A stretch of DNA of 64,000 bases, from positions 124,001-188,000 of the forward strand of contig JANVFP010000028.1 of the NCBI GenBank assembly GCA_027919835.1, in the 5' to 3' direction. Both the position numbers and the translations under genes were made by a program. The stretch comes from Lentinula raphanica. Its lineage: Eukaryota > Basidiomycota > Agaricomycetes > Agaricales > Omphalotaceae. Positions within the stretch are counted from its first letter, which is position 1. The number at the start of each line of letters is the position of its first letter. Below, in pieces: positions 18,432 through 59,954 of this stretch. Under the pieces are notes generated by a model. That model was not told the origin of the DNA and ran no database searches. It saw only the letters and a list, made by a program, of their open reading frames with translations.

Positions 18432-21400
18432 TCAGAACTCCATCCGCTCTCCACCCCCACCTCCGACAGTGACAGCAATCCTCCCATTCGCATTTGCGTT
18501 TGCGTTTCCGGTTCTTCTCCCACTCCTAGTCCTCCCTATTCCTCGCAGCATCTTCTCCTTTAGTTCAGCGTCCTCGCCATCCTTGTCATCTTCTAAATCC
18601 TCGTTGTCATTTTCATCCCCGTCATTGTCGTCATCGTTGTCGTCATCGTCATCCATCTCGACCTCCATCCTAACCATCGTATCATCGTCGGTTCCTCCTT
18701 CGCGACCTCTTCTTCCTCTCATCGTCATCTTCGTGGACCGAGATATCGACTTGTGTTTATCGACCTTCGCACCCCGAGGCTGCTCTTCATCAACATCTTC
18801 CGGGTCTTCGGCTGACCCTTCTTCTTCTTCTTCTTGTTCCTCCTCATCATCTTCTGCTTCCTCATCTCGATAATCCTCATCCTTCTCATCATCCTCTTCT
18901 TCCCCCTCTCCCTCATCATCCATATCCATCTCCACATCATTATCAACATCCCCCATTCTCCTCGTCTTCCTAATCCCAACAGCAACCCTCTGCCTCTGCC
19001 TCCTCCTTCTCACCGCAACCGGACTCGTACTCCCCGCGTGAACGTACGCCTTGGGTTTGCCCAGACCCAGGACTTCGGCTTTGAGCCCGCTCCCGCTGCC
19101 TCCACCGCCGCCGCCGACGTCGGAGCCTCGCCGGGCACGACGGGGTCGACCGCGGGTGAGGGTCTGGGTCTGGGGTGGTGGAACGGAGGGGGGTTGGGGT
19201 GTAGAGCTGTCTTGAGCATTTGGAGACGTGGGCGATGTGAGTCGTTGTTGTTTTTGTTCGAGGGAGGTGTTACTAGTAGGAGGCGACGGAGCAGCAGCAG
19301 CCGAGACGCGGAACCTCGTGCTTCGTGTGGACTTGGTTGTAGTCGTGTTCGTCGTCGTCGTCGTCGTCGCCGTGGTCGCGGTCACAGATGAAGTAGACGA
19401 CGCCGAACTTGGGGAGGAAGCGATAGTCGTGGTCCCTGGCGAAGGAAGCGAGGTGGCGGTGAGCTTGTTGTTGTTGTGGTTCGTGTTCGTCGTGTCTTCT
19501 GGTGAGTCTTCAGATTCTTTAGAGGACAGAGAAGGTTTCTTGTTCTTGTTCTTATCATTGAGGTTTTCGCCATTCTTCTTCCTAGGCTTCTCCTTCTCCT
19601 TTTTACCCAGTTTCTCTCCTTTCTCCTCGACGCCGGAACCGCCGTCCCTGTGCTCATGCTCATCCTCGTCCTCATCCACGTCGCTCAACGGAGAGCCCAT
19701 GGAGAGTCCGATGGGACCTAACATACGCGTAATCACCGATTAGTCTCAGATTAAACAGAGGAAATAAGGAAGAACGAAGAGAGGTAGGAAGAACGAAGGA
19801 AGGAAAGACAACGAACGAACGAACGAACGAAGTCTCGAAAGAAGCAATGAAGGAGCCAGTAACGAAGGAACGAAGAATGAAGAAACAAACGAACGAACGA
19901 ATGGAGAAAACGAACGAAGAAAAAGGAATCAGGAGAGGAACGAAAAGAGAGATTTCGTGAACGAAGGAACGAACGGCGAAGAAAGAAGAAGAAACGAATG
20001 AAGCAATATATTGCATCAAAGACACTAGACGTAGACCGAATGCTCAAAGGAAAAGAAGGTCCGCTCACCCATTGAATTCATCGTACTCCCTCCTACACCC
20101 ATCCCCATATTCACGTTACCAATCCCCATATTGCCCATGTTCATCCCCATCCCCATACCTCCCATACCCGTAGGCATGTTCACGTTCATATTGATACCAT
20201 TCATCCCCATCCCCATCCCGCCCATGTTCATACCCATACCCATATTCTCCATATTACTCATACTGTCCATATTCATCATATTCATCGCATTCATGTCCAT
20301 GTTCATACTCATCCCCATCCCACCCATCTCACTCAACCCATTCTCATTCTCGATCCCCTGCTGTTGCATAAACCCCTGGCCTTGATCAATCAACAGACAA
20401 CACAAAAAGACGACGTAAGTTACAGAAAAAGAAAAGAGAAGAAGGGGGAAAGAAGGGAAAAGAGTAACTCACCACTGCCGAACCCTCCTCCGAAATCAGC
20501 CTGACCCTGTCCGAACGATGGATTCTGATGATGGTTCATACCATCGTGTTCGTGTTCGACCATCATATGCGTATCTCCTCCCTCTTTTTCATCACTCATC
20601 CCACTACTACTCCCCTGAGTTCTCTCCCTCTCCCGATATCCCCTCAGCTCCCTCTCCAACTCCCTGTTTCTCGCACCCTGCGCGGTCACCAACTGCTGCA
20701 GGTACCGGATGTACTCTACGCTTTTTCGAAGGATCATCCCCTTGTTCGCTTTGACGACGGAAGACGAGTCGTCGTTCGCTCCTCCTGAACCTGCTGCTCC
20801 GGTGGCGCTGGTGGTAGAAGGATCGGGTTTCTTGTCGTCTCCAACACCGACATTATCAGGGTCCATAGGCTCCGTTTTGAGCCTCAGCCCCCCGCCTGCT
20901 GTTCCTCCTCCGGCAGCGGAAGGGTTGTGGAGGAGATACTCGTCAGGGACAGGGAGACCCATGATGTCGAGGTTGAAACCGTACGAAGAACCTCCTGTGG
21001 CGGTGGCAGCGTTGGATGATGAGGCTGAGGCAGGGAGGAGAAGAGAGGGAGATGTTGGGGATATCGGTGAGATTGGCGAAAGGGGGTTGGCGTTGGGAGC
21101 GTTGGAGTTGACGGTGTTTGGGTTCTGATTGGGGTTATCGCCTGGAGGTGGAGAGTTCCCAGAAGTACCTAGAAGGAGCAAACGAAAGAATAAACGATAT
21201 GCATCGGAATCAGAGATAGAGATAGAGAATAAGCATGAAGATAAGGTTACGAATTGATATAGGATAGAATAAAACCAAGAACGAGACAAACGAAGACTCT
21301 TACCTCCCTCGGTACCAAACATCACATCCGGAATCAATGTCGCCAGTTCCCCAATCTTCTCATTGATATTATCCCTCCTTCGTCTCTCGACAGCATTATG

Positions 21401-23671
21401 CGATTCCCTTCGTCTTCTCCTCTTTTCGTTCGCTAGCATCACTTGTTTCTCAGCTGCGGAGAGATGCTTCGTGTCGGCTCCGAGGGATCCTGACGAGGAG
21501 GATGTTTTATCGGGTTTATCGAGCTTGTCGAGTTTGGCGGTGCTTCCTCGTCTGGTAGAGGTGGTGGAAGAAGCGTTGGTGGTGGAGGACGAACGCGTGC
21601 CTCGACCAGATCCGGGTCCTCCTGCACCAGAGGGTGGAGGATGCTGCGATAAGACGGTGTTGGTCGTGGTAGGCAACGAAGACGACAAGGGTGTCATCCC
21701 TCCTCCGCCTTGAGACGAATGCGAGGAACGAGAGAGGGAGAGGGATAAGGACTGGGAATGCGAGTGCGAATGAGAGTGCGATGGGTGATGTTGCTGGCTA
21801 TGTTGGCTATGTTGTTGAGATTGATGATGCTGAGGATGCTGAGGATGTTGACCCGAATCCGCGAATGCTCCCCAACCATCCAGACCCATCCTATCCATTC
21901 TCTCAAACGACGAGGGGGAATGAGGATGTTGATTGTTGTTGGAGTTGAACGAGGCAGGTGTGGGCGTATGTGTCCCTGCTCCGCCTATAAAATCCATACC
22001 CATACCCATACCACTCATACTCATCCCCATCCCGCCTAGATTACCCATACCTCCCATACCTCCCATACCCCCTATCCCCATCCCCATCGGATCGTCCTCT
22101 CCTCCCTCACCCCTCTCAAGACCGAATTGCTGTGTATCCCCGCCTGCGCCGGGCGAAGAAGGCCAGTGTCCGTTCTGTGTAAACGACGACGAAGCATTCG
22201 AAGCGTTCGTAGTGTTGTTGGGATTGTTGTTGTTCGTGTTCGTGTTGATATTCCCGATCCCGCCAGTGATGCTCATCCCTAGACCCGGGTACCCACCCAC
22301 GTTCACCGTGTTCAGAGGGGAGTTCAATGAGCCCATGTGCGTGTGGGAGTGAGGGTTGTGTGCGTTTGGATGGTTAGGGTGGGAATGGAGATTGGATACG
22401 TTCAGAGAGAGATTAGCGAATCCGTGGAAGGAAAGCGGGGAATGCGTGCTTGGCTGTCGGTTCTGGGAATGGGGATGGTCGTGCAGAGATTCGGGCGTAG
22501 GTAGTGTGTATTCTCTACAACGCAAAACACGAAACATTTCCGTAAGTCGTTGTCGACGTTAACACTAAGAAAAAAAAGAAACTTACCCAGTCGTACCCTG
22601 ACTCCCCGCCGAGCCAAACCACCCATCCGCAACACCCTGTTGCTGTTGTTCATGCCTCGGAATCACAATCGCCGAAGACGTCCCTCCAGATCCATGTCCA
22701 TGCGGAGGCGGACTCACACTCACACTCGTCACACTAGTCATACTCGAAACGCTATTCCCTCTCCTTTCTCTTCTTGTTCTTTGGGGTCCTACTGATCCAC
22801 CCGCACCGATACCTCCTCCTCCACTAACACCGCCAATGCCATTTCCGCCTCCGGGAGACATCATGAAACCGCCCATACTAGGGGAAGAGCTTCCGGGATA
22901 GACAGAGACAGACGGCGGCCTCGACCTCGATCGTGATCTCGAGGAAAGCGCGTATGGATGACTCGCTGTGCTCGGGCTTGTAGCAGCGTGCGGGTGAGGA
23001 GAAGGTGTATGACGAGTCACACCTCCCCATACGGGGGTATGATTGTGAGCCGTATGGCTAAGCCCGGGCGATTCGCCTGTTGGTGTCATCGAGGAATTAC
23101 CTCCATTACTCCCGTTGTTGGCGTTATTGGCGTTGGGCGAATCAGGCAACGGCTCGTACCGCATGCTCGAGTTGAGCGCTGGGAGCGTCGAGTTGAAGTG
23201 GGTTGGGATTGAGGGTAGAGGAGGAGATTGGGAGAGGTTATGTGTTTGAGAGTGGGGTAAGGAAGGAGATTGACATTGGGTTTGAGAACTACTTGGAGGT
23301 CTGACTGTGATCCCCATATCGAAGATGTTATGCGTTCGATGGACGTAGTCGTTAGTCGTCCCTGTCGTCGTCGTAGCAGACGAAGCCGAAGAAGAAATAG
23401 ACGACGAAGCTGTAGGACCTGTAGACGCCGTAGAAGACGCCGTGCTCCTCTCAGAGCTCATCAACGAAGCTAGTTCTTGATCAAAACCACCGTTGCCTTC
23501 ACCGACTAGTAGATCATCGTCGTTGCCTATCATCCCGTTCATCCCTGATGTCGGTCTCCATCCTACGTTGTTGTTACTGGTGTTGCTACCGTTGTTATTG
23601 GCGCTGTTATTGCTGTTACTGTTATCAGGATGAAAGCCTTCCTGTCGAACGAGCCCTTTCGTCGATGCCAT
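18432..23671 (-). CDS. bHLH-leucine-zipper transcriptional regulator, 1,529 residues
   Basis: Exons run 23671-22587, 22514-21304, 21168-20473, 20380-20069 and 19717-18432 (4,590 nt). The start is the ATG giving MASTKGLVRQEGF. A basic region plus helix 1 (ESHNAVERRRRDNINEKI, about 732-749) has the His-Glu-Arg spacing of E-box (CACGTG-class) binders such as USF and Rtg3 types. Helix 2 (about residue 909 on, ILRKSVEYIRYLQQL) runs into a heptad zipper ending near 945. The loop between helices is about 145 residues, rich in Ser, Pro and Asn. Other parts: Asn/Ser-rich N-terminus, His/Ser/Gln runs, a Met-Gly-Asn repeat tract filling exon 4, an AT-hook-like GRPRRARRG, and a very acidic C-terminal third. 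Intron 2 (21303-21169, 135 nt) is in frame and stop-free, so its retention would lengthen the loop by 45 residues. Nuclear location is inferred. Confidence 0.88.
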
Positions 23672-26048: not shown

Positions 26049-26055
26049 CGGGCCA
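26049..26055. repeat. Target-site duplication CGGGCCA, left copy
   Basis: CGGGCCA is identical to 39,455-39,461 on the other side of the large transposon and directly abuts the inverted-repeat ends. Confidence 0.85.
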
Positions 26056-26360
26056 TATGACGTTCCTTTCGTACTATTATTATTTGCGCCTCATATACTA
26101 CTTAGCGCCTCATCCTTATCAAAATCAATGCCTTTTTGGCCAGAACTCTGACTTGAATTTTTTTTTTGCGCAGTCATGCATTGCTGCGCGTTGAGTATTC
26201 ACTAAGCGCACTCCACATCATACAACTAGCGCACTCCAAAGCAAGTTGCGCACTCCAGAACCAGTAGCGCATTCCAGAACAAGTAGCGCACTCCAGAACA
26301 AGTAGCGCACTCCAGAACAAGTAGCGCACTCCACAACAAGTAGCGCACTCCAGAACAAGT
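26056..26360 (+). repeat. Left terminal inverted repeat with 19-bp array
   Basis: The outer 150 bp match the right end in inverse orientation. The inner part (26,205-26,360) has about eight units of AGCGCACTCCAGAACAAGT with small changes. Such subterminal arrays are typical transposase binding sites; that role is inferred. Confidence 0.88.
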
Positions 26361-26744
26361 ACTTAGAGCAATCTATTGAAGATTATTTCAAAACTTAAAC
26401 CCTTAGGGCAGTGAGATCAGCATAGTAAACCAACGTTGTATAACATGTAGGGACTGTGTATATAATAGTAATGTGGGTAGTAAAGACGGTGAGGTAGAGA
26501 TCAATGTAGGTGGTAAAGACGGTGAGGTAGAGATGTGGGATGAAGGTATAGAATTAAGGGGTTGTGCTATTGATGCATTATTCCAAATTTAATAACTATT
26601 GAAGCTGGGTTGAGATAAAAGGAGCGTATCTATGAACATAATGGAGGCTAAACAGATAGATGAGTGGCGAGATGAGTGACAGGAATGCAGGATAAGTGAA
26701 GTAGCTGCAAGAGAGATATAGGGGAGAAATGAAGGGACAAGACA

Positions 26745-28374
26745 TCAAGGTATACCATCCCAGGGGTCAAGATTTTCCAACGATGGCTCTGGCCCTATGT
26801 AATAACGTAGAAAATCTGGTTTGGGAGGAGAAGGAGCTGGTTCCTCCAAAGCGGCAGGAGCTGGAGGCACTGCAGTAACTGGACGGATTGGACGAGGACG
26901 GAGACGAAGCCGGCTAGAACTGGGGCCTGCAGTAACGCTATTTGTATCTGAATCGTCTCCACTCAATACTACGATTGGGTTGCGGCAATTGCTGGTAGAT
27001 TTTCTAATTTTCTTGGGTGGTTCCTGGTCAGGTTCTTCCCGGACCAACAGTCGAACACGCTTTGCAGGCTTTGATGGACCAACCGAGTCTGTATAAGAAA
27101 GCTTCAGCTGATCAATTCTCCTTGTCAAAGGCTTTCGAGAGCTTACCGTCTGCATCTGAATCAACTTCAGTAGCCACACCATTGTCCTCATCGAGGCTGT
27201 TGACTTTGTCTTTGACGTTACCTTGACTGCGGTCATCATCCATATCATCGTCAGTCTCCTGACTGGCTCGGACTAAGTATTTCGCAGCAAGAAGCGACAC
27301 ATCGTGCTTCTTCGCCTCTTGTACCACTGCTCTAAAAAATCGAGAGTCTTCTTGGGCATTGGCTTTCGTCACTCGTGTAACTGAGGACCGAACTGTGTTA
27401 CTTTAACCTATGGATTGACGTATGATAACTTACCAAAAATAAGCTTTCGTCTTGACACCCCAGACTTTCCGTTGTCACCCGCAGTTTGCCAGAGCAATTC
27501 GCCATTCGGGAAGATAACGCTCGGTCCAGATAATGGCTTGATACTGCCCCGTACGCGTTCGCATAGATAGAGCTCGGGAAGAAATCGATTTTTGCCGTCG
27601 TATTTTGGATACCTTGGATTTTTCTCTGGTCGAAAAATTGACTCCTCGTTGAGATACGACATTGGCAGTGGAAGCCATTTCACCAGCTGGCGGTCCACTT
27701 CCTTTACGGTCCAAGTAGGATCTACATGTAAAGGAGAAGCTGGTGTCGACTCGATACAAAGTCCCATGTCACACAGATTGCGAATGGTGCCGATACTGGC
27801 CTCCAGCCGGGACAACGCCTTCACACCGTCATCATTGTCTGAATCCTATCAATGTACAACTCAGTATGATAGAAATATGCAGGTATATGTACTCACGGCA
27901 TCTTCAACGCCATATGGATAGATAGCGACACAGCTGATTTCATGACGCTCAGTGGGCTTATTCAGATGGTTAGAAGAAAAATCAACGTAGAATCAATATT
28001 GACTTTACCTCCGGTGCTTTTGCCTTCGCTTTGCCCTTCGTTCGAGTTTGAGTGACCGGGCGAAAGCCCTTGTTGGCCTCCTGGTGGGCCTGTTCCAGCT
28101 TTGACGAGGATGATTGTTTGACAGCCCTTGCAAGAGCAGAACCAGAGATTGTCGAGGTCCCAGCCTTTGCTGTCAACTCTCTGATCGCTGCTTTCACAGT
28201 ATCAGACATGTCAGAGTCATCTTCCACGTCAAGCTTATCCTCTACGACGGGCTCATCCTCTGAGGAAGAGGACTTGGGTTTTACCACCAATGGCTTTCGC
28301 CTAGAAATTTTGGACTTTTTTGACTTGAGTGGTAGGCTGGTTCGACGACGATTATTGCTTGCAGGTTGTAGCAT
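26745..28374 (-). CDS. Transposon-borne charged protein of unknown function, 471 residues
   Basis: Five exons: 28374-28009, 27956-27897, 27845-27434, 27380-27147 and 27088-26745 (1,416 nt). All junctions are GT-AG and phases agree. The N-terminus is basic with Lys/Arg/Ser tracts (SKKSKISRRKPL) and then acidic. A central more ordered block, about residues 142-280, contains LCDMGLCIESTPASPLHVDP, KWLPLPMSYL and NGELLWQTAGDNG. The C-terminus is again charged and Pro-rich, ending near PWDGIP. There is no recognised catalytic motif, signal peptide or membrane segment. The first gene inside the left end of the transposon, transcribed toward that end. The compositional layout suggests a nucleic-acid-associated protein (inference); real function unknown. 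Confidence 0.72.
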
Positions 28375-28546
28375 TCTAGGTATATAGTAGTTTAATGATA
28401 GTGAACGTGGTCGATGTTATGAAGGTGGCACGCTCAATTTCGAACCAGCTGCTTTTTGGCTTATGTGATATAGTCTTACATCAGATTTTGTGCAATACTG
28501 TATTATACGGCTTGGTAACGATATACTTCACCATACACCATGTACA

Positions 28547-31500
28547 CTATGCCTGTGCTAAAAGCTCATCCAGTGTGCAATACTTATTCAACACGTTTGT
28601 AATTTGCTGAATCTGCTCTCGTTCTGCATGTGCCAGTTGCTCTGGCGTCATTTTGGTTCGTGGCACCCTGTTAGGGTCGTGCCAGATAGGGTCGGAGGGG
28701 TCCGGAGATTCCGGAGTCGGACCTAGTAGGTCCTGGGATCGGACTTAGGAAGTACCGAGCAGGTAGGAAAGTGTACAAGACCCTACGGATGGTTGCGGGA
28801 CTTGGTGCTGTTATTGACCAACACCTTCTACTTGCTGCGTGTCCCTGAGGGTATGTGACGAACGTGAGGATCCAATAGGACCGTCGGACCGTGGGAAAGT
28901 CGGAATCGGACTAAACAAAGAGTCAAATGGACTAGACGTGAAGGCAGAGGTTGTACTAGAGAGGACTGAAACTAGTACCAGAGGTAACTAGGTCGTACCC
29001 AAGTCGATTTCGAGGTTAAGCCTACAGTACAAACTACTAAGGCTTATATACCAGTCTCGGAGTAATCAAGTTCCGAGGCTGTCAAGTAATTAACAATAAC
29101 TATTGTAAAGTCATAACAAAAGAATGAATGTACTTATTGTGAAATAAAAGACAATAAGAGTGATAGGCATAAAGACAATAAGGACTGTGGCTGTGCCTCC
29201 GAATCGGATCGGAGTTATACACTAATAAACAAGCTCCGGAGTCGGAGCCATCGGAGCCATCGGAGCTATAAAAGCCATCGGAGTAGAAATAACAAACATA
29301 AAATGAGTGTGAGGGGATTAGGGAGGGGTCTGGATCGGAATCGGATCGGAATCGGATCGGAGTCGGAGGTATGAATATAACAGTATCTCCTTGTTAGGCT
29401 TGAGCCCTCGAAAGCCTATAAGTGAGTCAGAGTGTATAAGGGCAAAACAAAACAAGTAGGACAGAAAAAACAAAGTTGGGTCCGGAGTATCAGAGGGATA
29501 GGATCCAAGAAGGTGCCGAAGGAAGGAGCAAACATAGAAATCCAAAATCTAAATACCACTGCAAAGGTTTTACTCGAAAATGAGTAACAAAAACTGTACA
29601 CTTCCGAAGAATGCACAAAAGGTGATGGAAGTCCATCCAAGAGGTTCCGAAAACTCCGAAATCGGAGCCGTTGGAGTAGCCAAGGCATAAGAAAAACAAA
29701 CAGAAGGGGCCGATCAGTATTTGTTCCAAGCTACCGAAGGTCAACGGACCAGAAGTGGGAGTTGAAACTATAATCAAGCCTATAATGTAAGAATTTCTAA
29801 CAGAGGGGCAGTGCATATGAAGAAGATGAAAACAAAGGGTGAGTGGCACAGAAAAATCTCGGAACCATCGGACATAAGTGACCCAAATCAACAGAATGAA
29901 CAAATATAACAAACAATGAGTGAACAGGGGGAAAATAACAGAAAAAGGTCGGACTTTAATGAACAAAAATATAAGAAATAAAGGACATAACAAACAGAGG
30001 TTGAACAAACAATAAAATTGGAGTAAAGTCGGACTAAAATCGGAGTCGGACCGGACTAGGACCGGAGCAACATCGGAAACAATGAAAACAAACTAGAACA
30101 CAAGCAGGAGACAAAAAGAAAACAAAAACTTAGCCTGAAAATGCCTCGGAGCAAGTCTAATACCAGTCCGAGTCATTTCCTACATCTCCATCGGAGCCCT
30201 CGTCATCTGATTGCTCGGAGCTCTCCTCATCCGCGGAGTCAGTGGTTTGACCCCGGAGCCTAGGACAATTGGCTCGGAAATGGTCTCCACCACAGTAGAA
30301 GCAAAGAGCCATTCTCCAGCGCCTTTCTCTCTCTTCTGGAAGTAACGTTCCATCGGATCCGAGTATAGGTCTGGAATCTGACTCAGAATCCTTGGAATCG
30401 GAGGAAACATCGGTCGGAGGACCGGAGTTATTGGAATTGGAGTAGTCTGAGGGTTGATTATTGGAATCGGAGTTGTAGGAGTTGTAATCGGAGGAACCGT
30501 CGGAAACGTCGGAGCCAGCATCGGAGGATGAGTCATTGACATCACCTTCGGAGCTGTCTGAGGAGGAATAGGTGTCCGGAAGGGAATGAGCATAGTCATA
30601 GAAAGTTTGAGCATCGGAGAGATCCATGACAGAAGTGAACAAGAACAGAATGTCCGAACAGCAAATAGAAAAGGATAACCTCGAAATACTGTTAGGGTCG
30701 TGCCAGATAGGGTCGGAGGGGTCCGGAGATTCCGGAGTCGGACCTAGTAGGTCCTGGGATCGGACTTAGGAAGTACCGAGCAGGTAGGAAAGTGTACAAG
30801 ATCCTACGGATGGTTGTGGGACTTGGTGCTGTTATTGACCAACACCTTCTACTTGCTGCGTGTCCCTGAGGGTATGTGACGAACGTGAGGATCCAATAGG
30901 ACCATCGGACCGTGGGAAAGTCGGAATCGGACTAAACAAAGAGTCAAACGGACTAGACGTGAAGGCAGAGGTTGTACTAGAGAGGACTGAAACTAGTACC
31001 AGAGGTAACTAGGTCGTACCCAAGTCGATTTCGAGGTTAAGCCTACAGTACAAACTACTAAGGCTTATATACCAGTCTCGGAGTAATCAAGTTCCGAGGC
31101 TGTCAAGTAATTAACAATAACTATTGTAAAGTCATAACAAAAGAATGAATGTACTTATTGTAAAATAAAAGACAATAAGAGTGATAGGCATAAAGACAAT
31201 AAGGACTGTGGCTGTGCCTCCGAATCGGATCGGAGTTATACACTAATAAACAAGCAAACATTAAGTACAAGCTCCGGAGTCGGAGCCATCGGAGCCATCG
31301 GAGCTATAAAAGCCATCGGAGTAGAAATAACAAACATAAAATGAGTGTGAGGGGATTAGGGAGGGGTCTGGATCGGAATCGGATCGGAATCGGATCGGAG
31401 TCGGAGGTATGAATATAACACACCCCTCCATCATCAAGGATTCTGAAGAGGCCTGCTGCAGTGTACTGTGTTAGAGAAAAACGAGTTTCACCAGGCTGTA

Positions 31501-33412
31501 GACTGGTATTGGAGTGCCGGAGGAAAGCAGATGGTATCATCATTGTCCAACCAGGAGGAACCTCCACAACCAGTTTGAGATCCCATAAAACCAGGTGGCC
31601 TCCCAGTCGAAAGTCAAAGTTGCCTAATGCCGTGATGGCACACCACCCATAGACGTAGTTCATATGATCAACGTGTTCGACGGTGGTAGTGGTGGGCCCA
31701 AGATTCAGGGTACAGCAGGCAAAGACACTGTTCCAGAAGTTGAACGATAGAGAGGGAATCATTTCCTGGAGCTTTTTCATGTAGGTTTGATAGAACGAAA
31801 AGAGGCGAGGAGCCCAAGTTAGAAAGGCAGAAGATGCATGGCCTGCCAAACGCTGGAAGCAAGCCATGTCCCGAATGCGATTCAAAAGCTCTTGATCCTT
31901 GCTCGACTGGTACAGCTCCTTGGCCTCCTGAAAATCAAAGGTCTTTAGAGTGTAGATTGAAGTAGGATTTCACACATACCTCTTGTCCTCCACCATAAGA
32001 TATCCCCATGGCCTTCACAGGAAAATCCCCTCGTCTATGCTGTGGAAGTGGCTTGTTCTCATTGAAAAAAAGAGGACGATATTCTTCCAAGATTTGTGCT
32101 GCCTCCTCTGCCGACCGATGATACGTTGGGTCCCCGGCCGGAGGTGGGATACGTGAAGCAAAAACCCGACCGTTGGTATCTGCAATAAGCGTGGGTCCAC
32201 TGGTCCTGTTCGTCAATATGTGGGCCCACTGTAGGTTGAGGCACTTACATATCCTCCAAGTTTGCCCGAAGAACTCGGAATTTCCAAAGTGAATCCTCTC
32301 CAACCAGCTCCTCCAGCTCATAGATCCGCCGCTCTGCTTTGACTTCCTTCTTGACCCGTTCACGGCCTAGATAGCCCGACGTGAACCTGAGGATATCGCC
32401 ACTGTCAAATTCAGCCTCCAGAACAGATGCTGACTTTGCCAAGCGGGCTCGATGATCTGACGACGTTGATCCATAAATGGCCCCCTTTCGAGCCCGCCTC
32501 TTGTTTGAACGCTGAACCTTACGGCGGTCACGATGGGGGCTCGGTGAACGTTGTGGAGTTGGAGGAGCCACCAGACGAGGACGTTTTTGAGGCCGCCCTT
32601 TGCCTTTGCCTTTGCCTTTGTGCTCGTTCTCGTAGTTTTCGTCGTCTTCGACTGTGCGTTTACGTTTCCGCGATACGCACTCAGGCTCCTCATCTTCTGA
32701 CTCTTCCTCATCTGAGTAGCCTTTGTCTTCATCCCCATCTAAATCCAACATACTGGGAAGGGTTGACGTGAAAGAATCGTGAGGGGTCGACGTCGAAGCG
32801 TGAGAGGCCGACGTCGAAGCGCGAGGGGTCAACGTCGAACCACGAGGGGTCGACGTCGAAGGGTGGGGGGCTAGCATGGAGGAGTGAGCGGTCATGGGTT
32901 GGGATGCATGGGTCTCTTGCAGCAGGACATTGACCTGGGAGGCATCTACATAATCCAGTGGAATTTGCTGATTTTCTTCTTGAGCTTGGATAATGCGGGA
33001 GTGTAAGGAAACACTGGCGTAGATAAAGCCAAAGACACGGCCAGAGCGAGTCTGACCCCAATGTTAGGCTGGTTTATCACTTGTTCTTGAAGGCACTTAC
33101 CGTCCGAGTGATGACCTGTACGTCGACCGCGGCAACAAAACCTAAATTTTTTTCAGCTGCTGTACATCAAGGGTTTGATAGCGCGCGCGGATGCCGGTAG
33201 GCGTGGGGTCAAACCGCGGTTCGAGGTGGGGTGTTTTGTTGGGGTTGACGTCCTGGCGAGAACGCTCCACGCCCCAACAAGACGGCCCCGAATCGACGGC
33301 TTTGCCACCCAATGCACCTCTGTAGCCCTAGGAGGTATGTGTAGCTGTAAAACTCACCTAATTCCAGCGCGAGGATGGCAAAGACGGCCCAGTACCAACG
33401 GTGTTTCCCCAT
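28547..33412 (-). CDS. TET/JBP-like 2-oxoglutarate/Fe(II) dioxygenase, 3' end split by an LTR element
   Basis: Likely oxidises methylated bases in DNA, as TET and JBP proteins do. Exons: 33412-33358 (tentative), 33141-33101, 33051-32249, 32205-31980, 31927 to the LTR element, then 28663-28547 beyond it. Without the insert the coding length is 1,749 nt (582 residues). Catalytic features: HVD (His460, Asp462) as the HxD iron pair, GWCAITALGNFD, GGHLVLWDLKL, LRHSN (His513) as the distal iron His, and GETRF (Arg524) for the 2-oxoglutarate carboxylate. The N-terminal half is Ser/Thr/Pro-rich, then acidic and Lys/Arg-rich (KGKGKGRPQKRPR). The LTR element enters after codon 544, so the present transcript would lose the last 38 residues and gain 39 from LTR sequence, leaving the catalytic core whole. 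The first exon and start are the weakest part of the model; the 43-nt intron at 32,248-32,206 is short. Confidence 0.8.
28664..28668. repeat. Target-site duplication CACCC, left copy
   Basis: CACCC precedes the left LTR and is repeated at 31,421-31,425 after the right LTR. Confidence 0.9.
28669..29382 (-). repeat. LTR, 714 bp (3' LTR by element orientation)
   Basis: Nearly identical to 30,690-31,420. It lacks a 17-bp segment present in the other LTR (a short duplication around ACAAG at about 31,254). Near its end it has runs of ATCGGATCGGA and GCCATCGGA. Confidence 0.92.
29383..30156. other. Non-coding interior of the LTR retrotransposon
   Basis: About 770 bp between the gag stop and the 3' LTR. 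Only hydrophobic, low-quality frames; no pol-like motif. A purine-rich AAGGAG patch next to the LTR (minus strand) may be a short polypurine tract. Confidence 0.6.
30157..30642 (-). CDS. Gag-derived protein with zinc knuckle, 161 residues
   Basis: Starts 47 bp inside the 5' LTR boundary. Most of the protein is Ser/Asp/Asn-rich repeat. Near the C-terminus is a CCHC zinc knuckle, CFYCGGDHFRANCP, with the spacing CX2CX3HX4C, one residue shorter than the usual CX2CX4HX4C. The tail is acidic and ends in DSDWY. Capsid-like folded sequence is missing, so this is only the nucleocapsid end of gag. It may help package the element's RNA in particles made by a relative (inference). Confidence 0.7.
   Translation of the reverse strand: MFTSVMDLSDAQTFYDYAHSLPDTYSSSDSSEGDVNDSSSDAGSDVSDGSSDYNSYNSDSNNQPSDYSNSNNSGPPTDVSSDSKDSESDSRPILGSDGTLLPEERERRWRMALCFYCGGDHFRANCPRLRGQTTDSADEESSEQSDDEGSDGDVGNDSDWY
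30690..31420 (-). repeat. LTR, 731 bp (5' LTR by element orientation)
   Basis: Begins TGTTAGGG and ends ATATAACA like its partner; differs by the 17-bp insertion and a few substitutions, which indicates a fairly recent insertion. Confidence 0.92.
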
Positions 33413-33414
33413 GG

Positions 33415-33655
33415 TGGTGGTGGTTGAGAAGGGTGGTGGTGGTGGTTGTTGAGAAAGGTGGTGGTGGTTGTTGACAGAGGTGGTGGTGGTTGTTGACAGA
33501 GGTGGTGGTGGTTGTTGACAGAGGTGGTGGTGGTGGTTGAGAAGGATGGTGGTGGTGGTGGTTGAGAAGGGTGGTGGTAGTTGTTAAGAAGGGTGGTGGT
33601 GGTTGAGAAGGGTGGTGGTGGTTGTTGAGAAAGGAGGCCGCGGGAGTTTATTGTT
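33415..33655 (-). repeat. CCACCACC-type minisatellite
   Basis: About ten imperfect units of GGTGGTGGTGGTTGTTGA with AGA/ACAGA variants. A minus-strand frame through it gives only Pro/Thr/Asn/His low complexity. It lies just upstream of the proposed dioxygenase start. Confidence 0.85.
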
Positions 33656-33814
33656 GCCATTCGGCGTTTTAAAATAATTCACATAGCGCTATTTCGGCGC
33701 CTAAACGGATCTCGTGACTCGTCACCTAATAGACTCCTATATCTCAACCTTCATCCTTATCCTCTCCATCTTTGTTTCCTTGTGCTCTGGAGAGCAAATT
33801 TATCCCTTCTTGGT

Positions 33815-34155
33815 CAACGTTCAACGTTCAACGCTCAACGCTCAACGTTCAACGTTGAGTCGTTTCAACACTCAACACTCAACATTGAACGTTGAGTCAA
33901 CACTCAACACTCAATCAATATTCAACGTTAACGTTGAGTAGACGAGGTCATGAGGACTGGCGGTAGTCAGAGAAAGTGACGACTCGTTGAGACTGTCGCA
34001 GTTCACTTCGGAAATAGGATTGCGTCAAACGCATGCACCAGCTAACGTTGAACTTGAACGTTAACGTGTTCAACGTTCAACGTTCAAGTTCAACGTTCAA
34101 GTTCAACGTTAACATTCAACGTTCAAGTTCAACGTTCAAGTTCAACGTTAACGGG
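33815..34155. repeat. TTCAACG heptamer satellite with palindromic AACGTT junctions
   Basis: Two clusters (33,815-33,930 and 34,040-34,155) of TTCAACG/CTCAACG units and inverse CGTTGAA units. Because both orientations alternate, the tract is full of AACGTT-centred palindromes. It lies in the spacer between the dioxygenase and BTB genes inside the transposon. Confidence 0.85.
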
Positions 34156-34838
34156 ATCTAGGGATGAGGTCAGAATCTAGGGAACACTTCAAAGGGATGA
34201 GGACCTAGAAAGAAAGGTATGCCATCCAAGATTTCCTCGTCACAATAGGAAATACCAGAGGGTATCACCATCGTCCAGTGATGCCTCGGTCCTTTTCCCC
34301 TCCATCCCTCATTGCTTGGCCCACCTATCCTCTTTCAAGAAACCTCGGTTCCGCTATACCCTGAACCTGACGACTAATAACAACTGGGGGGCTGCTAACG
34401 CGTAAACGCCATGACAGGAGACACTTCAGGCTCCTCCTTTCTTTTTTTCTAACTCCTATCACGCTAGTTCATCGCCGGAAAGTTCCTGGCAATGAATCCT
34501 TTTTGTTTCTGTCAATGAGTCTAACCCTCTCCAGTGAAACAGCGTCATCGCGGTTTTAACGCTTCCTTACATCAAAGACATGGCAGGCCCCGCTCCTCAA
34601 TACGAGTGTCATCCCCTTGAAGCTAGCCATATCCGGCGAGTCATCGCCTCCGCGAATGACTCGCCGCTACCTCAGCCTCAAATCCGGGTCTTAACCGGTT
34701 GTCCTCTCGTCGTTTACGCCGTGCCTACCTACGTCCTCATCCACACCGGAATCCCCAGCAATCCAGGACCGAGGATTCTCACTATTGCCTGTTGTATACA
34801 CTATCTGACGTCCCCTTCAGACCTCGATTCCATCGACT

Positions 34839-34891
34839 GGATACGCCTTACGTTGTGTAAGAGTCTCCCTCACACAACGTAAGGCGTATCC
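34839..34891. repeat. Perfect 20-bp-stem hairpin
   Basis: GGATACGCCTTACGTTGTGT at 34,839-34,858 is exactly complementary to 34,872-34,891, with a 13-nt loop. Confidence 0.9.
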
Positions 34892-35045
34892 CTCATTGCT
34901 GACCCTTCGATAGCTCCCATTTCACGGCTGGATTCTCAACCTGGTGTTCCTCTTTGGATCCTCTGCACGAAACGATGAATTCATGTGGTCATGTATACTT
35001 CTTTCGGCTTAATTACCTTCCTACCGGTCAACGCAGCGAATCGTC

Positions 35046-35155
35046 GTGGAATGTGTCGATTCGCGACGTGGAACGCGTCGATTCGCAACGTGGAATGTGT
35101 TGATTCGCGACGTGGAATGTGTTGATTCGCGACGTGGAATGCGTCGATTCGCGTC
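35046..35155 (+). repeat. 22-bp tandem repeat, about five units
   Basis: Units of GATTCGCGACGTGGAATGTG(TT) with A/G and C/T variation. Confidence 0.85.
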
Positions 35156-35996
35156 AATTTTACCTATTCAATCAGGACTTCGAGTTCCGGCACTCCCAAC
35201 CCTTACCTCTCTTACTGGAATGAAACAATCTTCAGCAATGCTACTGATTGGTATAATGTGGTATTCTGGATATCGCTCGTCGATTCAAACAAAGAGCCAA
35301 AGCCTTCAACTACTTTGCCCTGTCTTCCACTCCTCCTTACTGGAGCTCTACATCGATCCTTTAGACTTTCACCCTCACGCTGACCCCATCGCGTTCGACT
35401 TAGCGCAACAGCCATTCTGCCCATTCATTTCATATTGGATCTGCACAAAATATCCCAACGTTACCAGTAGTACATTGGAACAACACTCCGGACTCTGAAG
35501 ATTCATGGATACAGCTCGACAAGATCCCGACTGGTCAATAGGTACCATCGTTGGCATCCTCGTGCTCGCTGTTGACGCCAATGTTACGGTGCATTCTCTC
35601 AGGCCTCATTCACCAAGCCCGGCTCATCAAAACGTTCAAGTTCAATGCACACACCCCGTTCAAATGACCACTTGTTCGGGTCATATTTCTCGTCCGGTTG
35701 AACGCCTCAACCCTATCATCTAGCGCGATAGGTTCTCTAGAATGTTCTCAACTATCAGAGGATACGAGGAGATGCCAGTTCATAGATATTCAACGTTGTA
35801 ACTATTATTAAAACGACTCCTGATATACTAAGTAGTTCTATATACTGTGCTCAATAGTGTATGGAGGCTACGGATTTACTCCAGATATGAAAGGGCGGCG
35901 TAGTGAGCAGGTTGAGTAAGCGAGTGGGTCTATAGCGATAGTCAGATCCATTCACAGAGCTAGGTAGGCAGGAGGTTAAACGCACAGATAGTATTG

Positions 35997-37150
35997 TTAA
36001 GCATCTTCGATCTCTGTGTCCTCATTCAAGTCGGGAATTTCCTTGGGCTCTTCTCGTTGGATTTCGTAGACAGTGATAATGTCCTCCACCAGATGATTGA
36101 CGATTTGAGATACATGGGGGAAGTCATGGAACAGGCGCATCTGTTGGACTGTAGCTCTCTTGCAGCTGTCCCTGAGGAGGTTAAAATCTGTGCGTTCGAC
36201 AAGCTGGATAAGACCGTCCCATGTAAGTGGTGGTCTCTCTGGGTGAAGTATATTCGGTGTAATACGCTGATACCATCCAAAGTTCCACCCCTTCTGGCAT
36301 GTCTCCTCGTGGTTTGTCGAGCCAGTGCTGCTAACCAGGGTGTAGGGCCTCACTGCTAGATACCTCCGTCTGATGTCCAGTTCTTCGCGAGTACAAGCAA
36401 TCAGAGGGTACACTTTGCCTATTGTTTGTTCTTCCTCTTTCATGTAGTGAGACAGACGCTTAGGAAGAAGCCGTTCAATAGCGCCCTTGATCCAGTACTT
36501 CACGCCAGGGCGAACGTGGTACATTTGAGCCAGGCGTAGTACCTCGACTGGGTCGAGATTGAGCAAGGGGAGTTTGGGGATTGCAAAAGCTAGAACCGAC
36601 TCCATTTCAAACAGAGAACCCAACTCCAGCAGAGTCAGAATATTTGCGGGAGTAGCTCTGTATTCTGTCAAGGCCCTAAAATATGGTTCAGTAGCGTGCT
36701 ACGTGAAAGGTTATATATCAGAAAAATGCTACATACCGACCATGAAAGAACCTGAGACAGGTACGAAACACCTCAGCAGAGATAGTGTTAGGTAACACGA
36801 TAGGGTTGGCCTCTGTCCCCTCAGTAGAGTCGGGGCTCGTAGGTATATTCAATAAATCGTTCAGAACAGAGGAATAGCGTCCGAGAACATCAACATTTTC
36901 TCTGAAAAGATGGATTTGGGAAGGAATGTTGTTCTAATAAAGTAGTACTGTGGATTAACATGTACATGTCATTGGTTGTTATTTTGACTTACGCTGACTG
37001 CACTCAAGACAATGACTCTGCCAGAGTTCCAGTACTCAGACCTGACCGTCTGAGTAGCCATTGGTGGCTGATAAAATTTTTGAGACAGGCTGAAATAAGA
37101 AATCAGACGATACATACATTATTGTCTTGTGGTTGGTCGCCGTTGGCCAT
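35997..37150 (-). CDS. BTB/POZ-domain protein carried by the transposon, 327 residues
   Basis: Four exons: 37150-37118, 37067-36993, 36933-36737 and 36675-35997 (984 nt). The BTB-like part (about residues 18-130) shows the fungal pattern: SGRVIVLSAVS, IHLFRENVDVLGRYSSVLND (the helix where many BTB proteins read FRVHK..L), NPIVLPNTISAEVFRTCLRF and LTLLELGSLFEMESVLAFAI. The C-terminal half is a helical region found after BTB domains in many agaric proteins, ending in an acidic tail. BTB domains dimerise and recruit chromatin factors or ubiquitin ligases; which applies here is unknown. It is divergently arranged with the DDE gene, 78 bp away, so the two probably share a promoter. Confidence 0.8.
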
Positions 37151-37228
37151 GGTAGAAGAGAAAAAACAAACGATGGGGATTATGTACTCATTTCGCACTT
37201 AAAGCATTGGATTCTAGACGACACATGA
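37151..37228. promoter_or_regulatory. Shared 78-bp divergent promoter of the BTB and DDE genes
   Basis: Only 78 bp separate the two start codons, with no room for two independent fungal promoters. No TATA box is obvious. If the DDE protein starts at the second in-frame ATG (37,247), the gap is 96 bp. Confidence 0.6.
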
Positions 37229-39135
37229 TTGGCTGTGCAAGCTGCCATGCCTCTTCCACCACCACCTCCTGCTGATATTATCAGGTCGCCAAATGTTCTG
37301 GGCGCGTTCAACCTGTTGAACAATCGGTATGAGGCTGCTTGTCACCTTCTCAATAGTGGGAGCTACGAGCTACACCGTGTCAAATTTCACAAGCGAGTTG
37401 TTATGGACCAAGCAGTACACACAATTCCCGCACTGGAAGCTGCAATGTATGATGAGCATCTTCCAGCAGAGTGGATCCATACTATAAGTGATGCGTATGG
37501 CACCTTGATTGCTGAGCTGCTTCATGCAGAAAAAACCGTCAAGGGAAGGTCAGTCATTTCCTTATCAAACATACATCAAACACTACCATATATTATCCTG
37601 TAGTGAATCGATTGGGGTAGACTACCTACAACCTGTGTCTGTTATACGGACTGGCAGACCAGGTCGCCCTCGGAAGGTTATCAACCCAATTTTCTTGCAG
37701 CAGGCCATTGGAAAAGGACGACGTATTTCTATAACTCGTCTTGCAAAGCTGACTGGAGTACATCGACACACCATGCGCCGCTATCTGAAAAGGCATGGAG
37801 TCAATTACAAATTTTCAACACTCACCGATGAACAACTCGACACTATTACCCGGCTTTTCAAAGCATCCAAGGTCAATTCTGGTTTACGCTATCTTCGTGG
37901 GTTCTTGAACATGCACAGTGTTCGAGTGCAACGGAGAAGGGTCATAGAATCCTTACAACGCGTGGATCGCTTAGGACGAGTCATCCGTCATAGGCGCTTG
38001 ATCGAGCGACAGCCGTACAAGGTTTCTAGGCCGAACGCATTGTGGCATATTGATGGCCACCACAAGCTGATTTTCTGGGGAATAGTTATTCATGCCTGCG
38101 TAGATGGTGATTCGCGTACGGTAGGTGCTGAATCTCAGCTTCATCAGCCACCTGCTGATCATACATTGCTCAGGTAACCGGTATACGTGCTAGCTCCAAT
38201 AATCGGGCTTCAACAGTTCTTGACATTTTTCGAGGGGCTACCAACCAGTTTGGATGGCCTTCCAGAGTTCGCCTTGATCGTGGGGGAGAAAACATCTTGG
38301 TTGCTGTCGAAATGATCATGCGTCGGGGTCCGAATCGAGCAAGTGCCATGTGGGGCAACTCACACTTCAGTTCTCGTATTGAACGGACATGGCCCGAAGT
38401 AGGTTCCCAGTTTGCGCGAGGATGGCGGGCATTCTTCCTTCGTCTTGAGCGGCTTCATGGTCTCCAGCGAAACAATCCTCATCATCTATGGCTCCTCCAC
38501 CTTCTCTTTCTTCCGTCTATCAACGACGACTGTCAAGAGTTCATGGAAATGTGGAATTCCCATCCTATTTCAGGCAAAGGTCACGATAAAAGTCCAAACG
38601 TATGTATTTGTATTGGATAGTCCAGTCAATTGGCTGCAAAAAATACTAATCGAGCTTGGATTAGGATATGCGACTCATGGGACAACTACGGAATGGTCTG
38701 TACCGTGATGTCGATAACACGATTCATCCAGAAATTCTTCGATATTATGGTGCCGAAGGCGTTGAAGATACAGAAGAAGCACGAAAGCTTGTTACCGATT
38801 AGATTCGAAAGGAGCAGAGTACTAATTATTACCATGCACCTGTTTCAGTCCCAAAGCATTGGTCGCCATTTTTGGATCAATCGCGAGAAGCTGACTTATT
38901 CGGTAGAATTATGGAGGGATTGGAACGCAGCAACTGGATACCTGTAGACTATTTTCTGACTGAAGATGAATGGGGCGACGATGGCTATCCTTCTTTCGAA
39001 GTTATACCCTATGGTAAACGGGGTCATCGGGAGCTTCAGATTCCCCTTCCTCACCATATTTGGTTTCCTCGTGCATTACAGTGGGCACGGTCTTTACACA
39101 CTATGGATTATATTCTTGATAGTAGAGCCAATTAG
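37229..39135 (+). CDS. Integrase-like DDE core protein, candidate transposase; premature TAG
   Basis: Probable strand-transfer enzyme of the 13.4-kb element. Exons 37229-37548, 37604-38120, 38174-38599 and 38665-39135 (578 codons). Residues about 124-173 hold GRPGRPRK and a helix-turn-helix (ISITRLAKLTGVHRHTMRRY) for DNA binding. The core has WHIDGHHKLIFWGIVIHA (Asp257), RVRLDRGGEN (Asp314) and SRIERTW (Glu349), giving a D, D(34)E triad in the integrase/RNase H fold, followed by PHHLWLLHLLFLPSINDD and HPISGKGHDKSPN. This layout matches eukaryotic 'integrase core domain' proteins known from agarics and some animals rather than retroviral pol. An in-frame TAG at 38,800-38,802 (codon 467) cuts off the last 111 residues, although the frame continues open to 39,135. 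The start could also be 37,247. An intron skipping the stop would need a weak GTGCCG donor, so nonsense mutation is favoured. Confidence 0.82.
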
Positions 39136-39190
39136 ATAGAAAATGTACATAGCTACACATACATATATGGCAAGTGTGCCACCTTTACAT

Positions 39191-39454
39191 GGAGTGCGCT
39201 GCTTATAAGGACTGAAGTGCGCTACTTGTTCTGGAGTGCGCTATTTGCTCTGGAGTGCGCTACTTGCTCTGGAGTGCGCTAGTTGTATGATGTGGAGTGC
39301 GCTAGTAAAACCTCAGCGCGCAGCAATACATGAGTGCGCAAAATATATATATATAAGCCAGGAGTTCTGGCCAAAAAGGAGTTGATTTTGATAAGGATGA
39401 GGCGCAGAGGAGTATATAAGGCGCTAATAATAATAGTACAAAAGGAACGTCATA
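39191..39454 (-). repeat. Right terminal inverted repeat with 19-bp array
   Basis: The array at 39,191-39,303 holds about six units complementary to the left array. From there to 39,454 the sequence is the inverse of the left end, ending GGAACGTCATA. Confidence 0.88.
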
Positions 39455-39461
39455 CGGGCCA
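39455..39461. repeat. Target-site duplication CGGGCCA, right copy
   Basis: Perfect direct repeat of 26,049-26,055. Confidence 0.85.
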
Positions 39462-57800: not shown

Positions 57801-58332
57801 CCAACAAGGCACCCCTGAATTTTTTGACTATTTTTAGGATTTTTTTCAGATTTTTTGCTACAAGATGACATCATCATCAAAAATTTCCTTTTTTGGTAAT
57901 TTTCGGATGCCTGGATCTGCAATAGGCTATATACCATCCCTACATATTTTTAGCATTTTTAGTGATTTTTTTGGCTATTTTTAGCACCTAGATAGATCCT
58001 ACAGCATTTTTTACCATATAAGGCTATTTTGTTTACATACCCCGATTTGACCTAATTAGGTTTTTTTGGGTTTTTTTGAATTTTTATAGTTTATCAGGAT
58101 TTTTTACAAATATACCGCTTATTTAATATCTGGATAATTATTAATTACCCAAAACAGTAAATATAGGTCAGATGTGACAGGTGGTGACAGGCATGCCCAC
58201 CCCCCGGAGCCATTTCCGGAGCCCCCTCTATGTCGTCACAACTATTTTCAAAAGCTCCTGGATAACTCATCAGGTCTTTTTACAAAAGCTTCACAGTATC
58301 CTGTGTTCGCGAAGCTCCTACAGCTACGGGTG
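54861..58332. mobile_element. Palindromic non-coding element, copy 2 (3.5 kb with nested MITE)
   Basis: Left end CAGCTGATACTGTAAAGC; right end is the inverse of CACCCGTAGCTGTAGGAGC. Arms of about 1.4 kb are inverse copies, meeting at a spacer near 56,275-56,530 that is inverted relative to copies 1 and 3. No target duplication is seen: the left flank is unrelated to the right flank, which enters a gypsy reverse transcriptase. Each arm holds the same short frame (MGAYGRLFGIF-like) next to the spacer. Confidence 0.85.
56787..57137. mobile_element. 351-bp MITE with TA target duplication, nested in copy 2
   Basis: Ends are CTGTACCGTTTCGACCA and its exact complement, flanked by TA on both sides (56,785-56,786; 57,138-57,139). 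The opposite arm (about 56,020) preserves the uninterrupted sequence. TA duplication points to a Tc1/mariner-type relative. The interior has repeated GGGGGTGTCACC and GAACA words. Confidence 0.9.
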
Positions 58333-59947
58333 TATGGTGATGGGTTTCACTAACGCCATACAAGACTTCCAGAGGTGTACCAATCACTCGTTGGAACAGG
58401 TACGAGAGTTCGCTAGTGTCTTTATTGACGATTGTGGTCTTAAAGGTCCTACGACGCGATACGAGGAACGAATGATCTACCCGGGAATTCGGAAGTTCAT
58501 TTGGGAGTATGTGGAACGAATGGACCTGCTTTTTGGGACGCTCGAAGAAACGGGAATCACGGCCTCGGGATCAAAAGCCGTGTTAGCGGCTTTCAGACTC
58601 AAAATTGTCGGGACCGTGGTAGCGTTGGAAGGGTGGATTATGGAGCCGTCAATGGTGCGGAAGATACTCGACTGGCCCATTCCAGGAAGCACGACCGAAG
58701 TGAGAGGATTCCTAGGAGTGGCAGGTGTAGGGAGGAGATGGATAGAGAAGTTCTCCATTATTGCGAAACCGCTGACCGCGCTTTTAAGGGATCTGTCCGA
58801 ACGCGAATTCGAATTTACAGGAGACGCGACCGTGGCATTTGAAGAGCTGAAGCACTGAATCTCCAGAGCCCCAGTGCTCATTGCTATAGACTACGAACTC
58901 GCGAGACAAATGGGCCAAAAGCCACGGAAAACTGACGAAGGGCTAGTAGTAGTGGCCGTGGATGGTTGTTATACCGGAGCAGGGTGGAGTTTGTATCAGG
59001 TTTGAGAACGACTGAAGCAACCAGCAGGGTTTGGATCGTGTACGTTTAGCGACCGAGAGCAGAACTACGGGCAACCCAAGACCGAGCTCTACAGCGTATA
59101 CCGGGCGTTCAAAGAGCTTAGACACCGAATATGGGGTATTCTTTTTCGTCTGGACCACGACGCCATTTCATTAGCGCAGATGCTGAAGACTCCAGATGAT
59201 GTACCTAACGCGCCGGTTTTACGATGGGTTACGTGGTGTAAGTTGTTCACGTTCGAGACTAATCATGTTCCAGCGGCCCAGCACAAAGTGGAAGATGGGT
59301 TGTCGAGGAGACCCAGAGCAGAGGGAGAAATAGTAGAGACGGAGGAAGGACAGGAGAAATTCTTGGACGGATTCATAGATCAGGTAGGCTGGATACGAGA
59401 ATACGAAAGGATGGTAAAGACACCGAAGGTCAGTCCTGAGTACATATGGGACCTATTGACCATCAGGTTCTCTACCCGCTTCGACAAGTCGTCCAAGGGG
59501 ATTACGACCGCGAATCCGGTAAAGTTGTCGTCCACCTTGTGCTTGGAACAATACGGAGCAAAGCTAGAGGGGGTGAAGTGCATAAGTATCGAGGAAGAGA
59601 ACTCTTTCTTCGAAATTTCATCTCTGAAGGTAGTATCGCAGATCGGATTGCAGCCGTTCAAAGAATTCTATCCGAGAAAGGTAGCAAGGAAGGAAGAAGG
59701 TCAAGTAATGATTGGGGACGAGGAAGTAAGTATGGAGTTTAGTGTGTTTGACGTGGGTGGCATAGAGGACTACGCGAACGTGGGAAGGGCAGGTAAGGAT
59801 CAATTGAAGGAGGATGACGGAGAAGACTTCTGGAAGGAAATTCGAGAATATCTGGAAAACGGTAAGGTGCCCAAGAGAATTCGGGATGAAAAAGGGAGAG
59901 TAGCTTTTTTTAAGAGAGCGCGAAGGTTTTTTTCTGAGGGACGGTAA
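58333..59947 (+). pseudogene. Ty3/gypsy pol fragment: reverse transcriptase and RNase H, decayed
   Basis: Starts abruptly inside the reverse transcriptase at the edge of palindromic copy 2. The catalytic FIDD box (VFIDDCGLKGP) and the thumb/connection motifs (GFLGVAGVGRRWI, FSIIAKPLTALLRD) are present. RNase H follows (VVAVDGCYTGAGW, FSDREQNYGQPKTELYSV, HVPAAQHKVEDGLSRR). In-frame TGA codons occur at 58,856-58,858 and 59,003-59,005, and a run of seven T at 59,927-59,933 marks a frameshift before the integrase. Gag, protease and the first part of RT are absent. No LTRs were recognised. Confidence 0.85.
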
Positions 59948-59954
59948 GATATGG

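Follow-up and report, generated by a model that had tools for sequence, protein, structure and literature searches.

We analysed a 64,000-nucleotide stretch of the genome of the mushroom Lentinula raphanica, an agaric of the Omphalotaceae (assembly GCA_027919835.1, contig JANVFP010000028.1, positions 124,001 to 188,000), here called the window. Below, Cn stands for contig n of this assembly (49.06 Mb, 75 contigs); the window is thus C28:124001-188000, and positions given without a contig are those of the window. At 26056-39454 (13,399 bp; C28:150056-163454) it contains an element that carries genes for a DDE transposase, a BTB-like protein, a TET/JBP-like dioxygenase and a fourth protein. This is a real, well bounded and recurrent mobile element. 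The ends that we read agree exactly with the coordinates in the original prediction, and the inverted ends, the 7-bp duplication CGGGCCA and the four genes described there are all present.

Structure of the element

The element has the termini TATGACG..CGTCATA and long inverted ends. Direct reading of the junctions showed CGGGCCA (26049-26055) followed by TATGACGTTC on the left, and GAACGTCATA followed by CGGGCCA (39455-39461) on the right; the two CGGGCCA copies form the target-site duplication. Repeat analysis placed the left terminal inverted repeat, which starts TATGACGTTCC, at 26056-26376 on the plus strand. The right terminal inverted repeat, placed by repeat analysis and direct reading, lies at 39190-39454 on the minus strand and ends CGTCATA. 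The outer inverted arms (26050-26148 and 39362-39460) are 99 nt long and 90% complementary, and the inner arms (26205-26296 and 39212-39303) are 92 nt long and 92% complementary. Each terminal repeat contains an array of 19-bp subterminal units: 7.4 copies at 26222-26361 on the left, where most units contain GCGC, and 3.9 copies at 39212-39285 on the right.

The transposase gene lies near the right end on the plus strand (37247-39135) with exons at 37247-37548, 37604-38120, 38174-38599 and 38665-39135. Its product matches the Pfam family rva_4 (PF24764, E 5.8e-58), and there is a weak helix-turn-helix match upstream of this domain. The catalytic residues D251, D308 and E343 are encoded at 38052, 38276 and 38381, the second D and the E being separated by 34 residues. 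The nearest NCBIfam models are IS3 (6.5e-10) and IS481 (9e-10), both far below cut-off, and no HHCC family is among the Pfam hits of the protein. An in-frame TAG at 38800-38802 (codon 461) stands beyond the catalytic core. We considered that this TAG might be part of an intron, and ruled this out because the C10, C13, C11 and C7 copies stay in frame here and have a sense codon at this position.

The dioxygenase gene is on the minus strand at 28547-33411, its start codon being approximate. A nested long terminal repeat (LTR) retroelement of 2.75 kb (28669-31420, minus strand) lies inside the 3' part of the gene and splits off a 3' piece at 28547-28668. The LTRs of this retroelement (28669 to about 29382, and 30690-31420) differ by five substitutions over 710 aligned bases, it is flanked by the duplication CACCC (28664-28668 and 31421-31425), and its open reading frame (ORF) contains, by eye, a zinc-knuckle-like motif. 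As the C10 copy lacks the retroelement and aligns straight through the insertion site, the insertion postdates the spread of the element itself. Thus, the window copy is damaged twice, with a split dioxygenase gene and a transposase gene that has an in-frame stop.

The candidate iron ligands of the window dioxygenase are H (31675-31673), D (31669-31667) and H (31516-31514). Among 54 aligned proteins of the family (283 were found and 120 listed), the first H was present in 54, the D in 51, the second H in 54 and a downstream R in 52. This pattern suggests that the HxD..H residues bind iron. No E was found at the D position in these 54 proteins or in 30 loci of the genome, where the dioxygenase has 93 matches. 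In a structure model of the near-identical dioxygenase P0121, the fold is closest to those of CcTet, NgTET1 and TET2, clearly above other 2-oxoglutarate (2OG) enzymes; CMD1 (13.3) is about level with AlkBH3 (13.1) in this comparison. The dioxygenase is therefore predicted to have a TET/JBP-like fold, and it probably acts on methylated DNA. Over the aligned fold it shares about 13% identity with CcTet, and the family profile matched none of the CcTet chains in sequence up to an E value of 1.

The BTB-like gene (35997-37150, minus strand) has four exons and is divergent from the transposase gene. Its protein matches the BTB family weakly (PF00651, E 0.013, below cut-off), and a relative at C41 reaches 21.8 bits with Skp1_POZ, against a cut-off of 21.9. 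The pieces of the gene at C7, C11 and C35 had no Pfam BTB match, and the protein had no match among solved structures at E up to 10.

The fourth gene (26745-28376, minus strand) lies next to the left end. It has at least four exons, although the exact model is uncertain, and encodes a protein with a basic, low-complexity N-terminus. The protein, including its central region, had no Pfam match, and its structure model has a predicted local distance difference test score (pLDDT) of 35. Among public proteins, in a search limited to relatives that share short words, it had six matches, all from L. raphanica.

Copies in the genome

The original prediction had proposed a search of agaric genomes for other copies by their ends and DDE core. 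In this genome, several copies share both the gene set and the end motif. Matches to the transposase of at least 79% identity lie on C28, C10, C7, C11 and C13; they come from a list of 111 matches, for which 92 of 147 candidates were scored. The fourth gene has six matches in the genome, solely at these five loci. The BTB-like gene also has six, at the same five loci and, with 28% identity, at C41; at C35 it was seen by eye only. Starting from the transposase end, the order at C28, C10, C7 and C11 is transposase, BTB-like gene, dioxygenase and fourth gene. C13 has the same order without the dioxygenase: no match to it was found between the ends of this copy, of which 263,501-272,299 and 274,801-279,329 were covered by the search without being read. 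The gene set is bounded by similar ends at C10 and C11. The C10 transposase is interrupted by some 5.7 kb between the counterparts of window positions 38059 and 38061; at C7 the transposase is in pieces and the ends were not located.

The end pattern TAYGNCGTTNYNNNYGTAC, which itself required TAYG, had 32 matches in the genome compared with three for a reversed control. From these matches, together with a variant right end of C10, we assembled 15 end-paired elements, all of which have TATGACG..CGTCATA ends. Unpaired matches at C8:502208 and C11:50372 and one spare C1 end were left out, and the C1 pairing 191778-192638, which has no duplication, was dropped in favour of 191778-192782. The long copies, besides that in the window, are C10:944217-959715 (duplication CCAGAT), C11:1141350-1156473 (CACATC) and C13:254354-279364 (TCAACC). 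Ten short elements of 0.8-2.3 kb on C1, C3, C5, C7, C10, C15, C37, C63 and C71 share the terminal motif and are likely non-autonomous relatives. One of them, C10:943357-944189, is separated by only 27 bp from the full-length element on C10; those on C15 and C71 do not differ over 1,001 bp and could be a single element. A further end-paired element on C46 is 6.6 kb long, of which 81 left-end bases and the last 1.6 kb were read.

Exact target duplications of 6 bp were found in 11 of the 15 elements, including the long C10, C11 and C13 copies, and of 7 bp in two, the window copy and C1:2104661-2105524; the remaining two (C10:943357 and the C37 element) have none. The 7-bp duplication of the window copy is thus exceptional, the family norm being 6 bp. 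A new superfamily defined by 7-bp duplications could claim the two exact 7-bp cases, but the 6-bp majority, the TA..TA ends and the likeness to IS3 and IS481 largely refute it, and we regard it as very improbable.

Relatives of the transposase are found throughout Agaricomycetes, and some animals have them too (349 proteins were found, of which 120 were listed). A FastTree of the transposase core, with modest support at deeper nodes (0.69-0.97), separates the clade of the window copy, which includes C35 and C41, from a second group that bears an HDGHH motif. Both groups include transposases with a dioxygenase gene in the vicinity; for the HDGHH group, of which three members with a neighbouring dioxygenase were retrieved, this is a matter of proximity. 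For the C18/C1/C40 family, no ends were found in the 951 bases read beside C18. We also asked if the BTB-like gene is general to IS3EU relatives, and rejected this: none was obvious by eye in the 1.5 kb upstream of each of 12 more distant transposases.

The 93 genome matches of the dioxygenase, some of which are pieces of one locus, represent a large expansion. This raises the alternative that the gene is passive cargo, picked from a large family by an IS3EU transposon and without a role in transposition. Such a view is consistent with the finding that 77 of the 90 dioxygenase places compared (second pieces were left out) lie more than 20 kb from every listed transposase place, and with the damage or absence of the gene in C28, C11, where N replaces the D of the ligand pattern, and C13. 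Additionally, the closest other dioxygenases, at C14 and C21 (86-88% identical to that of the window), lie more than 20 kb from any matched DDE gene. These two (L041 and L042) adjoin a different shared gene, perhaps belonging to another element type, and two ORF pieces of this neighbour had no Pfam match. However, the dioxygenase frames at C10, C7, C14 and C21 are open at 82-98% identity and keep the iron-ligand pattern. Moreover, 14 of 53 transposase places, hand-picked from the 111 listed matches to leave out extra exon hits of the same loci, have a dioxygenase match at a distance of 15 kb or less, compared with 2.8 expected if dioxygenases were evenly spread; this uniform expectation does not correct for clustering of mobile elements, and C10 and C7 count twice. 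The 14 places represent 12 loci, of which nine are divergent, one is convergent and two are tandem. Taken together, we consider it unlikely that the dioxygenase is passive cargo.

Relationship to known elements

IS3EU elements are described as having TA..TA ends, duplications that are usually 6 bp, no HHCC domain and a first catalytic D 100-300 residues from the N-terminus (PMC10045372). The L. raphanica element probably belongs to IS3EU/GingerRoot, as it has TA..TA ends, mostly 6-bp duplications and a DDE core nearest to IS3/IS481, with D251 as the first catalytic residue and no HHCC domain found. It differs from the elements described in PMC10045372 in its three further genes and in the 7-bp duplications of two of its 15 copies.

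IS3EU elements with a TET gene are known from seven species of Pucciniales (6 bp, TAYGG..CCRTA) and from Tuber indicum (Kojima 2025, PMC12730594). Like these, the L. raphanica element combines a transposase and a TET/JBP gene, and its duplications are mostly 6 bp, as stated for the Pucciniales families. Unlike the Pucciniales elements, it resides in an agaric and its ends are TATGA, with A as the fifth base, and not TAYGG. The published elements have the TET gene between the transposase and an alpha-kinase gene (PMC12730594), whereas here the fourth gene stands where the alpha-kinase would flank TET, and a BTB-like gene is added. No alpha-kinase was among the Pfam hits of the element proteins and ORFs scanned. 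The dioxygenase also differs from the described PE and AG types. It has HxD where the PE type of the Tuber element has HxE (PMC12730594), and it is not a close sequence relative of CcTet of Coprinopsis cinerea, as the AG type would be.

In Agaricomycotina, the elements with TET listed in the available text of PMC12730594 are Kyakuja, Zisupton, EnSpm, Plavaka and Helitron2, and IS3EU is not among them. These resemble ours as mushroom DNA transposons that carry a TET/JBP gene, but have other transposases, to which the proteins and ORFs scanned had no Pfam match. Styx of Zymoseptoria is also derived from IS3EU and has four coding sequences; no dioxygenase is mentioned for it in the available part of PMC10853768. 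PMC12411881 and PMC8955403, which mention IS3EU and basidiomycetes, give repeat tallies only in the parts available. Our literature search, which left subscription papers mostly outside, found no report of IS3EU with TET in Agaricomycetes and none of a BTB domain linked with TET and a transposase in basidiomycetes. PMC12730594 was the sole match for IS3EU with a dioxygenase, and also for a TET dioxygenase linked with transposons and hydroxymethylcytosine in Agaricomycetes; the term BTB has no occurrence in it.

The original prediction had put forward a possible new transposon type that unites a DDE enzyme, a TET/JBP-like dioxygenase and a BTB protein. One bounded element does unite an integrase-like DDE enzyme, a dioxygenase recognized by its fold and a BTB-like gene, although the BTB match of the last is weak. 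A new type is not supported, because the ends, duplications and DDE core fit IS3EU/GingerRoot, and IS3EU elements with TET were described in 2025 (PMC12730594). What is new is an agaric variant of these recently described elements with different partner genes. The remark that no KDZ or CACTA-like transposase is visible agrees with our scan: no KDZ, EnSpm or Plavaka family was found in the five proteins and ten ORFs or pieces scanned, which cover part of the ORFs of the element, and on this basis a KDZ or CACTA element was set aside.

CpG transitions

Deamination of 5-methylcytosine usually leaves an excess of transitions at CpG sites. The C28 and C10 copies differ at 287 of 8672 aligned positions, and transitions were found at 99 of 752 CpG positions compared with 104 of 3419 other C/G positions (odds ratio (OR) 4.8, p 7e-25). 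For C11 and C13 the counts were 33 of 465 and 26 of 2275 (OR 6.6, p 7e-12). The counts for these two pairs come from a recount in which overlapping loci were not counted twice. Thus, full-length copies display an approximately fivefold enrichment. C28 and C7 gave 123 of 342 compared with 416 of 2117 (OR 2.3). Over all pairs, the bias tends to be lower where divergence is higher. Other dioxygenase loci gave ORs of 1.4 (C14 and C21) and 2.7 (C11 and C45), and the nested LTR pair displayed a weak bias (3/73 compared with 2/262, p 0.07). CpG is not depleted overall, as the ratio of observed to expected was 0.99 and 0.92 for the two ends, 0.86 for the element as a whole, and 0.86 and 0.81 for the flanking DNA.

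A model for the role of the dioxygenase

Transposon-borne TET proteins are thought to undo silencing, an idea described as experimentally unvalidated in PMC12730594. Our model starts from what was observed, namely bounded ends, duplications, a recurrent gene set, catalytic DDE residues, a predicted TET fold and CpG-specific transitions. We think it quite likely that the element belongs to the IS3EU/GingerRoot DNA transposons, moves by cut and paste and has a dioxygenase that would keep it accessible. The DDE transposase would bind the terminal repeats and the 19-bp subterminal repeats, and would cut and paste the element with a stagger of 6 bp, or sometimes 7 bp. The host would methylate CpG sites of the element. 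The dioxygenase may then oxidize or remove 5-methylcytosine on the element, allowing its genes to be expressed or its ends to be bound, and the BTB-like and fourth proteins may serve as helpers. Such an anti-silencing role would couple transposition to base oxidation.

Several results weigh against this model. In the ends alone, the CpG excess was not significant (6/52 compared with 10/205, p 0.1), and it was absent when the two arms of the window copy were compared (1/27 and 18/112). Among transposase relatives that lie more than 20 kb from any dioxygenase, three pairs gave ORs of 5.3, 2.8 and 1.4, one of them a similar bias, and two pairs of short end-paired elements gave 0.7 and 1.6, which is no bias. 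Because the pairs without a dioxygenase vary and the short elements show none, the CpG trace is neither special to this element family nor general. Finally, an intact dioxygenase gene is not obvious in the window, C11 and C13 copies, where it is split, has N for D or was not found.

The dioxygenase may instead make another modification (6-methyladenine, thymine or hypermodified cytosine) or act in trans on other loci. Its low identity to CcTet leaves room for this, and CcTet itself also acts on 6-methyladenine, with further activities discussed as open in PMC12730594. On the other hand, the CpG transition bias implies that a cytosine-methylated substrate was once present on the element, and we regard a different activity or target as doubtful. 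Within the anti-silencing model, a more specific version can be proposed for an agaric IS3EU lineage. Here, a further type of TET, which has HxD and is neither near CcTet nor HxE, would demethylate its own GCGC-bearing 19-bp-repeat ends and so license transposase binding, and the BTB-like and fourth proteins would complete one self-derepression module. This version is speculative, and we hold it to be rather improbable as a whole.

The element would extend IS3EU with TET to Agaricomycetes, with a different set of partner genes. It matters also because one mushroom genome offers a natural comparison of damaged and undamaged dioxygenases, and of relatives without one nearby, with clear methylation scars.

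Other features of the window

Between the dioxygenase and BTB-like genes, 33412-34152 contains low-complexity arrays made of 22-bp TGGTGG, TCAACGT and 13-bp units. An inverted repeat in the middle of the element (34839-34891) has 23-nt arms that are 96% complementary and a 7-nt loop. Left of the element, an ORF on the minus strand (20420-22558) has, by eye, a bHLH-like stretch and is perhaps a host regulator gene. To the right, ORFs at 58178-61109 resemble, by eye only, a Ty3-type retrotransposon polyprotein.

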